Notes under the pieces: model-generated
Told to the model about the DNA's origin: nothing
The model's database searches: none
The model's input: only the letters and a program-made list of their open reading frames with translations
Translations under genes and position numbers: made by a program
DNA from: Prochlorococcus sp. AG-409-G20
GTDB lineage: Bacteria; Cyanobacteriota; Cyanobacteriia; PCC-6307; Cyanobiaceae
Assembly: GCA_003215775.1 (NCBI GenBank)
Contig: QCJW01000007.1
Location: forward strand, 1-64,000
Length of the DNA stretch: 64,000 bases
Direction: 5' to 3'
Shown here: one piece after another, positions 22,933-25,805 of the stretch
Numbering within the stretch: the stretch's first letter is position 1
How the letters are laid out: each line of letters opens with the position of its first letter

Positions 22933-23826
22933 TTACCGAGGATTAGTCTTCATTAATTTCTGAACTTCACTTGCATGATAACTACTACGAGTCAAAGGTG
23001 AACTGATAACCTGCAAAAATCCCAGTTCTATCTCTCCAAGCTTCTTATAGACTTTAAATTCATCTGGAGACACGAATCTGTGAACATCTAAATGATTAGG
23101 ACCTGGAGAGAGATACTGGCCAATAGTGACTATATCTACATTATTTGAACGAAGATCTCTCAATAAATCTACAACTTCGTGGTTAGTTTCTCCCAAACCC
23201 AGCATAAAACCAGATTTCGTGTAAGTCTTTGGCCAACCTTCATGTGTACGTTTTAAAAGTTCTAATGATTTCTGATAATTTCCTTGAGGCCTGACCCTTC
23301 TATAAAGCCTTGGAACAGTTTCTATATTATGATTGAGGACATCAGGAGATGAATCTAAAACTAATTTCAAAGCTTGCCAATTTCCACAAAAGTCTGGTAT
23401 CAAAGTCTCAATTGTTGTTGATGGCGAAGATGTTCTAATAGCTTGTATACATTTCACAAACTGACTAGCTCCACCATCAACCAAATCATCTCTATTAACA
23501 GAAGTAATAACTACATGACGAAGTCTCATTCTTGATACAGCCTCTGCAAGGCGAATAGGCTCGGTGTCATCTAATCCACGAGAACTTTTATCAAATTCAA
23601 TATCACAATATGGACAAGCTCTAGTACAACCAGGGCCCATAATTAAGAATGTCGCAGTACCACCTGCAAAACATTCACCAATATTTGGGCAGCTTGCCTC
23701 TTGGCAAACAGTATTCAATGCCAAGTCAGTCAACAAATCAGAAACATTCCCAATACGTTCCTCCTGAGGAGCCTTAACACGCAACCAACTAGGTTTTACC
23801 AAAGCTTTAAAAGTCGCAGTACACAA
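22933..23826 (-). CDS. lipA: Lipoyl synthase
   Basis: A 297-residue radical SAM enzyme that inserts two sulfurs into octanoyl groups on lipoyl domains. Both 4Fe-4S clusters can be read: the auxiliary CxxxxCxxxxxC ([12 protein letters not shown]) and the SAM cluster CxxxCxxC (CTRACPYC), plus the C-terminal serine motif (RSSYHA). The frame is closed by a TGA just upstream of residue 1 and contains no early ATG; translation must start at TTG 23826 or the TTG eight codons later. Cyanobacteria commonly have two LipA paralogues. Confidence 0.93.
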
Positions 23827-23884
23827 TCAGAAAAAGATTAGCAATGAAGATGAGTTTATAGAACTGCTTATAAAATCAACTACT

Positions 23885-23958
23885 CGTGACGTGCCGCACT
23901 TTGGTAGCGCCCTTCGTTCGGGAGGAAGTGGACACAGGTTCGAATCCTGTCATCCCGA
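23885..23958 (+). tRNA. tRNA-Pro(CGG), structurally degenerate, possible pseudogene
   Basis: A 74-base cloverleaf. The anticodon CGG is at 23919-23921 in loop TTCGGGA, and the T arm is perfect (ACAGG TTCGAAT CCTGT). Other helices are damaged: acceptor pairs 3:70 (T:C) and 6:67 (C:A) are mismatched, D-stem pair 10:25 is C:C, anticodon-stem pair 31:39 is G:G, and position 15 is C in place of a purine. A normal tRNA-Pro would begin CGGG and pair throughout with the intact 3' half (CATCCCG A). No CCA is encoded. Either a decaying gene or an RNA with another use; tRNA-Pro(TGG) could read CCG codons by wobble. Confidence 0.75.
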
Positions 23959-23981: not shown

Positions 23982-25805
23982 TTAGCTATTAAAATAGCCT
24001 CGAGGGGTTAAGAGAAATTGATCCTTAATAATACTTCTACTATTACCTATGAGAACAAGAGTAAACATATCTATTTTACCAAGAGGGCAATCACCAAGTG
24101 TATATAAATTTATATTTTCAGAGTCTCTGCCAACTTGTCTCGCTAGTGCAACAGGAGTATCATTTGGCCGATATTTCAATAATATATTAAATGCAACTTG
24201 AATTTGCCAGTCTCTATTCTTTGACTTTGGATTATAAATAGCAATCACAAAATCCGACTCACCTGCTGCAATCAATCTACCCTCAATCTCTTCCCAAGGA
24301 GTTAAACGATCACTCAGACTTATGCAACAGAAATCACTCATCAAAGGAGCACCTAGTCTACTTGCGACCATTTGTATTGCTGACACCCCTGGATGAACAA
24401 AAAACTGAGGTCGTTCCTCAGGAGTTTTTTGCAAGTAAAGCTCTAAAGCCAAGCCTGCCATGCCATATATTCCGCTATCACCAGAGGAGATAACAGCAAC
24501 TCTTATACCCTGAGATGCCAATTCGAGAGCTTCTTCACATCGCTCGACCTCTTTAGTTAGTTGGCCATCAATTCTTACTTGATCATTTCTTCTAAGAGGT
24601 TCTAACAAGTCTAAATAAAATCCATAACCAATCCAAACTGCTGATCTAGCAAGCGCAGAGCGTGCGTCATTTGTAAGGAAAGAACTATCACCTGGCCCAC
24701 TCCCAACCAAATGCAACTCTCCCGATTTAGGTCGAGATGGAACTATAGATTCTGCAATTGCAATAGTTACCGCTCCATGCTCTTCTTCTTGTGGGTAAAA
24801 AATAGTTTTCTTTTGCAATAGACAACCAGATTTTCCTGCTGCAAGTAGAGCGGCAGCTTCAGCAACAGAAGCACATCCAATTTCCTTTTTAACAGCATTT
24901 GAGGGGGTAGGCACTGAAACCTTATCAAGAGACTCCACACTGAAAAACCGAATTGGCCAAGCATTAGTTTCAACTAAATCAATTAAAGATTGCTCATCCT
25001 GTTTTAAATCAACAGTGGCAAAACCAGCTACAGCCTCCTTGGCCAAACAAGCTCTTTGGAAAGAATTATCTAAAGCCCTCCGAATAAGACTTTGGCTTGT
25101 ATTTCTTTCACAACCAATACCAATCCAAAGAGTTGCTGGATGCCAAGAACACTTATGTGATTGATCTGGTCCTATGAAAAAAATGCCAGAATTATCATTC
25201 AACTCAGCTTGTTCATTCGTAACACAGTTAGCAGCTGCTTTACTCGTCAGCCATAAACGAGAACCTTTTTGCTGGCGAAAAGATACTGCTTTGCCCTGTG
25301 CCTGAAGAATCATTAGTTCCTTCCAGTTTTTAGCAGTACCACTTCTTTTCCATCCCCAAGATTCTCCAAAACTATCTATTGATAAACGATTACTAGTTTT
25401 GCAATCTCCAGTTATTACTGCTGTTCCACCAATATCTTCAGCCAATTGTATTGCTACAGACTCAGCACCTGCTGAATGACCACCTATTAAAGGAACAAAA
25501 TAATTCCCCTGAGCATCTAAAACCACAACTGCCGGATCATTATCTTTTCCACCCAGAAATGGAGCAATGAGTCTTGTCACAGCTCCAATAGCGCCAACCA
25601 CAAACAAAAGTTCAATAGTGTGCCAATTTTCAGAAAATATTTTCGAAGGTCTACTAATAATGCAATTTTCAGGAATAGTTTCTAACGCCTCTGCTGCTCC
25701 ATATGACAGAGCAATGGAGTCAACATACTTTCGATTTCTCAGCCTAAGCATCATTGGTATCGAACTCGAAGATAATCCGATGGCCAATTTTTTAGGAAAA
25801 CTCAA
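23982..25805 (-). CDS. cobJ: CbiG-CobJ fusion: cobalt-precorrin 5A hydrolase / precorrin-3B C17-methyltransferase
   Basis: A 607-residue fusion in the corrin ring part of cobalamin synthesis. Residues 1-340 are CbiG-like (VGAIGAVTRLIAPFLGGK, IGGHSAGAES, GIGCERNTS, VAEAAALLAAG). From about 363 there is a tetrapyrrole methylase domain (LHLVGSGPGDSSFLTNDAR, ISSGDSGIYGMAGLALEL, VHPGVSAIQMVASRLGAPL) typical of CobJ/CbiH. Prochlorococcus makes pseudocobalamin, needed by its B12-dependent enzymes. The frame opens at TTG 25805; the first ATG is 17 codons in (25754), but it lies inside the conserved start (LAIGLSSSSIPMML), so a TTG start is likely. Confidence 0.9.
   Translation of the reverse strand: MSFPKKLAIGLSSSSIPMMLRLRNRKYVDSIALSYGAAEALETIPENCIISRPSKIFSENWHTIELLFVVGAIGAVTRLIAPFLGGKDNDPAVVVLDAQGNYFVPLIGGHSAGAESVAIQLAEDIGGTAVITGDCKTSNRLSIDSFGESWGWKRSGTAKNWKELMILQAQGKAVSFRQQKGSRLWLTSKAAANCVTNEQAELNDNSGIFFIGPDQSHKCSWHPATLWIGIGCERNTSQSLIRRALDNSFQRACLAKEAVAGFATVDLKQDEQSLIDLVETNAWPIRFFSVESLDKVSVPTPSNAVKKEIGCASVAEAAALLAAGKSGCLLQKKTIFYPQEEEHGAVTIAIAESIVPSRPKSGELHLVGSGPGDSSFLTNDARSALARSAVWIGYGFYLDLLEPLRRNDQVRIDGQLTKEVERCEEALELASQGIRVAVISSGDSGIYGMAGLALELYLQKTPEERPQFFVHPGVSAIQMVASRLGAPLMSDFCCISLSDRLTPWEEIEGRLIAAGESDFVIAIYNPKSKNRDWQIQVAFNILLKYRPNDTPVALARQVGRDSENINLYTLGDCPLGKIDMFTLVLIGNSRSIIKDQFLLTPRGYFNS

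Follow-up and report, generated by a model that had tools for sequence, protein, structure and literature searches.

A probable tRNA-Pro(CGG) pseudogene of recent origin in the lipA–cobJ interval of Prochlorococcus sp. AG-409-G20

Bacterial tRNA pseudogenes have been counted genome by genome (PMC9858662) and are recognizable as tRNA-like loci with uncompensated lesions from which no functional tRNA is expected. Among proline isoacceptors, the tRNA-Pro(cmo5UGG) of E. coli is essential and reads all four proline codons (PMC4519876). In Prochlorococcus, partial copies of tRNA-Pro(TGG) are found at genomic islands, and in the Cyanobiaceae, including Synechococcus, Cyanobium and low-light Prochlorococcus, a tRNA-Pro(CGG) gene occupies a conserved place between lipA and a cobalamin synthesis gene. 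In the literature that we searched, we found no description of the loss of tRNA-Pro(CGG) in Prochlorococcus.

We analyzed a 64,000-nucleotide stretch (the window) from the draft genome of Prochlorococcus sp. AG-409-G20, and surveyed that assembly for tRNAs (1.50 Mb, 83% complete, 30 contigs). The original prediction had placed a tRNA-Pro(CGG) with structural defects at 23885–23958, and both the position and the anticodon proved correct. The locus and its neighbors, identified by cmscan against RF00005, Pfam, synteny in relatives, orthologue comparison and comparison of upstream sequences by eye, are as follows.

22933–23826, minus strand: lipA, lipoyl synthase (Radical SAM), intact upstream neighbor, syntenic in relatives
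23869–23876, plus strand: retained -10-like element TATAAAAT, at the place of the orthologues' conserved TCTAAAGT-type upstream motif
23885–23958, plus strand: degenerate tRNA-Pro(CGG) gene (probable pseudogene), at the syntenic place where relatives carry intact genes
23919–23921, plus strand: anticodon CGG, unchanged
23982–25805, minus strand: fused CbiG/CobJ-type cobalamin synthesis gene (CbiG_N, CbiG_C, TP_methylase), intact downstream neighbor, syntenic in relatives

Positions 23885–23958 match the Rfam tRNA model RF00005 over its full length with a score of 35.0 bits (E = 1.4e-3 in the 64 kb window), which lies above the gathering threshold of 29 and places the locus in the tRNA family; no other Rfam family exceeds its threshold there. 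The score is nonetheless low compared with the 64.5–68.8 bits of four tRNA-Pro(CGG) orthologues, and it is the lowest of the 33 tRNA loci in the draft genome, the other 32 of which score 51.9–76.1 bits. A high score had been named beforehand as the result that would speak for a working tRNA. ARAGORN makes no call at the locus and reports only tRNA-Ser and tRNA-Gln in the window. Given the cmscan E-value and the intact orthologues at the same place, the locus is a true tRNA relic rather than a chance match.

Those orthologues are numerous. In a DNA search of 400 family genomes, most gave a close tRNA-Pro(CGG) match, with E-values of about 1e-17 or better, and in the loci that we read, more than 50 family genomes carry an intact, nearly invariant gene between lipA and cbiG/cobJ. 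The carriers include Prochlorococcus AG-363-B04, AG-363-O06, AG-363-P08 and AG-363-P19, as well as Synechococcus AG-679-C18, RCC307, Cyanobium and others, and their syntenic genes establish the orthology of the window copy to a functional gene. Among 50 genomes we found only seven intact haplotypes, which vary at string positions 9, 16, 48, 50 and 58. The window copy resembles these genes in its place, length, anticodon, T arm, 3′ acceptor strand and the position of its -10-like motif, and a consensus promoter scan finds no full sigma-70 site upstream of it. It differs from them in an Rfam score about 30 bits lower and in seven derived changes at otherwise invariant sites, all away from the positions that vary among intact haplotypes. 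Orthologue comparison gives these changes, all on the plus strand, as follows.

23887: G3T, breaks pair 3:70
23890: T6C, breaks pair 6:67
23894: G10C, breaks pair 10:25
23899: G15C, breaks the 15:48 tertiary pair
23911: A26C, changes one partner in the 26:44 contact
23924: C39G, breaks pair 31:39
23929: G44T, changes the other partner in the 26:44 contact

The mismatched pairs are thus T3.C70, C6.A67, C10.C25 and G31.G39, and position 15 is a C. All five of these defects had been noticed originally, but that count was too low, as it missed A26C and G44T. As had also been noted, no damage is seen in the T arm, the anticodon loop or the 3′ acceptor strand; discriminator A73 and pair 1:72 are likewise intact. 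No relative shares any of the seven changes, which all fall at positions invariant in the other genomes compared, and no second change compensates for any of them; with four mismatched stem pairs and both the 15:48 and 26:44 contacts altered, the copy retains neither a fully paired cloverleaf nor its conserved tertiary positions. Six of the seven changes (23887–23929) are transversions, three of them G/C swaps, and we found no cause for this excess, for which P is 0.007 when transversions make up one third of mutations and 0.06 when they make up half. Template switching was considered as a source for the paired transversions G10C and G15C and rejected, as neither arm copies the other.

We mapped the tRNA changes by parsimony on a 51-genome lipA+cobJ tree and took the expected number from the rate elsewhere on that tree. 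The branch leading to this genome carries seven tRNA changes against 0.76 expected (P = 1.6e-5), a departure from the purifying selection seen in the orthologues. The genome is placed among deep-branching Prochlorococcus lineages, its end branch measuring 0.50 changes per residue, and siblings with similar end branches have 0–2 changes in tRNA-Pro(CGG). Its tRNA-Gln(TTG) and tRNA-Pro(GGG) are 100% identical to the sibling copies, evidence against both an assembly error and a rapidly evolving genome. Because protein divergence on the branch is large while the tRNA has accumulated only about 0.1 changes per site, the decay probably began late on this branch. The lineage is represented by one genome, so the seven changes may be either polymorphic or fixed.

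The locus is very probably a recent pseudogene of a dispensable isoacceptor, tRNA-Pro(CGG) being one of the three tRNAs for proline. This reading draws on the orthology, loss of constraint, random-like damage and repeated loss elsewhere that the comparisons demonstrate, and comparison with relatives, a simulation of random hits and the independent losses described below all lend good support to the original suggestion that a pseudogene has been caught while decaying. In this genome CCG accounts for 2.26 per 1000 codons and 4.9% of proline codons, counted over 109,226 codons as had been proposed at the outset. In lipA plus cobJ, low-GC relatives have similarly low CCG counts whether or not they carry the gene, and GC-rich relatives that carry it have high ones. 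We propose that CCG turned into a rare codon in this lineage that could be read through wobble by tRNA-Pro(UGG), and that the gene would have lost its selective value because CCG was both rare and readable in this way. At least seven uncompensated point mutations would then have followed, disturbing the cloverleaf at six contacts and sparing the rest by chance only. Transcription from the retained -10 region may persist, as the kept motif makes plausible, and the product should fold poorly, fail to be aminoacylated and be turned over. The intact -10 region, anticodon loop and 3′ part count against a pseudogene, as does the predominance of transversions, an unusual outcome of neutral decay where the genome is fairly AT-rich. 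Unlike the bacterial tRNA pseudogenes described previously, the window copy keeps its anticodon, full length and syntenic place and has been damaged by point mutations only. The event is of a known, ordinary kind, unusual only in being caught halfway.

A tRNA-Pro(CGG) that is weakened yet still functional, with its mismatches tolerated and low charging sufficient for a rare codon, is an improbable alternative. The intact anticodon loop, discriminator, pair 1:72 and T arm would suit such a molecule, as would the score above the gathering threshold and the continued use of CCG. The changes themselves point the other way, since all seven strike invariant positions and none is compensated, and complete relatives lack the gene at the lipA–cobJ place altogether. 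Folding with ViennaRNA also disfavors it: the cloverleaf has weakened from -26.3 kcal/mol in the ancestor to -15.6 kcal/mol and is no longer the predicted structure, which is a different fold at -20.3 kcal/mol.

A simulation in which seven random mutations were drawn 3000 times, under each of two mutation models, further supports the pseudogene reading. The four mismatches, the cloverleaf energy and the minimum free energy (MFE) observed are all ordinary outcomes of seven random mutations, and stem positions take four of the seven changes against 3.97 expected, so that the distribution of lesions, small as it is at only seven changes, is indistinguishable from random hits. Since the number of mismatches, the stability of the cloverleaf and the folding energy all match such hits, selection has not favored a new structure. 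The window copy can also form a shifted hairpin (with pairs such as C26-G40 and C27-G39) and a GTGC/GCAC palindrome, but we rejected an alternative RNA fold because the MFE of the copy is no better than that of random mutants.

These results bear on the original suggestion that the transcript is kept for another reason, for which we found no positive support: the mutation pattern gives no sign that a structure has been preserved or rebuilt. It is very unlikely that the gene has become a non-decoding RNA, such as a regulatory RNA or a decoy for RNase P or a synthetase, that drifted from the cloverleaf under new selection. Retention of the -10 element is compatible with this idea, and the last 29 nucleotides are unchanged from the closest haplotypes, with a chance of 0.025 if the 3′ end is named beforehand. 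A clean run of such length anywhere has P = 0.20, however, so the intact 3′ end is poor evidence for a kept function. Moreover, the MFE is not below that of random mutants (P = 0.85–0.87), as it should be had a replacement structure been built, the locus matches no non-tRNA Rfam family above threshold, and no sister genome has the same form. Equally slight is the probability that a degraded tRNA is still made, for example to titrate a tRNA-processing enzyme, with the cloverleaf relaxed and the T arm and acceptor 3′ strand kept.

The decoding that the pseudogene reading presupposes requires tRNA-Pro(TGG), and the 83%-complete assembly contains no full-length gene for it. We observed instead its exact 3′ 46 nucleotides on an 11 kb contig (C22:9066–9111 in G000; L107, L256), with an integrase-like gene (406 aa, phrog_1 E = 3e-12) starting about 160 nucleotides away. 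This appears to be a tRNA-Pro(TGG) island, like those of several relatives in which more than one such fragment occurs. Three siblings (G006, G040 and G037) likewise lack a full copy, and in G079 the gene is split between contigs C27 and C30, one carrying its 5′ part and the other its 3′ part, which suggests that assemblies break at these attachment sites. Given the three siblings and the split copy, the most fitting reading of the gap is that the assembly broke at the island, and we infer that this genome has a full tRNA-Pro(TGG). The original claim that the cell can dispense with the CGG isoacceptor is supported by complete relatives that keep tRNA-Pro(TGG), which lack the CGG gene at its conserved place and have no close DNA match elsewhere, but this genome shows tRNA-Pro(TGG) as a 3′ fragment only.

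The same fragments bring up the original proposal that tRNA-Pro(CGG) is itself maintained as a chromosomal attachment site for a tycheposon or phage. Its 3′ half, the usual attachment part, is intact, and tRNA-Pro(TGG), also a proline tRNA gene, serves as such a site in this genome and its relatives. The fragment at C22 is likewise a non-functional tRNA-Pro sequence in this genome; the island copies, however, are 3′ fragments of the TGG type, here near an integrase gene, whereas the window copy is a whole mutated gene flanked by lipA and cobJ with no element between. We found no partial copy of tRNA-Pro(CGG) elsewhere in the genome, neither an adjacent integrase nor a direct repeat of its 3′ end, and no IMG/VR contig with its exact last 26 nucleotides. 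The attachment-site reading is thus largely refuted and has only the barest probability. That the seven changes are sequencing or amplification errors is as good as discounted, for although the assembly is an incomplete draft and most of the changes are transversions, the flanking ORFs are open, the other tRNAs checked match the siblings, and a 10% error rate limited to 74 nucleotides is implausible.

The fact that the gene has disappeared elsewhere in the family fits its reading as a pseudogene here. Complete genomes of genera g4, g10, g17, g39 and g56 contain no close match to tRNA-Pro(CGG) in a DNA search, their best match being an intact tRNA-Pro(TGG), and no recognizable trace of the gene remains upstream of lipA. 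This gene-less group is separate from the lineage of the window on the lipA+cobJ tree, on which deep branches are weakly supported, and perhaps reflects one or two losses. In genus g44, two species (G104 and G124; loci L279 and L281) whose lipA genes are 95.8% identical carry a 36-nucleotide acceptor/T-arm stub upstream of lipA, and two other species have the gene intact. The stubs share a 38-nucleotide deletion between GCGCAG and CCGCAG repeats that removed most of the D arm and the anticodon arm, and they carry point changes beyond it. They represent the same gene, place and outcome as the window copy, but were lost by a single deletion of the anticodon arm followed by point changes, whereas the window copy has decayed by point mutation only. 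On about three occasions, then, tRNA-Pro(CGG) has been lost, and the routes differed. Weak matches in G323, G338, G336, G058 and G326 were rejected as decayed copies, as each is an intact tRNA-Pro(TGG), and in most genomes that gave no good match to the gene a complete, assembled lipA locus is missing too; G104 and G124, with their true truncated stubs, are the exceptions.

The lipA–cobJ locus therefore displays tRNA loss by point decay, by deletion in the g44 stubs and by complete removal in a large Prochlorococcus group. The window copy offers a snapshot of a bacterium shedding a redundant tRNA, in which a near-frozen family gene becomes neutral sequence once its codon is rare, and together these loci form a small natural series with which the loss of tRNAs from streamlined genomes can be timed; no general idea is changed. 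We also observed a second lipA paralogue in g17 genomes (for example, G016:C4:81156–82019); in many of them the match contains one in-frame TAA, which may be merely an end effect.
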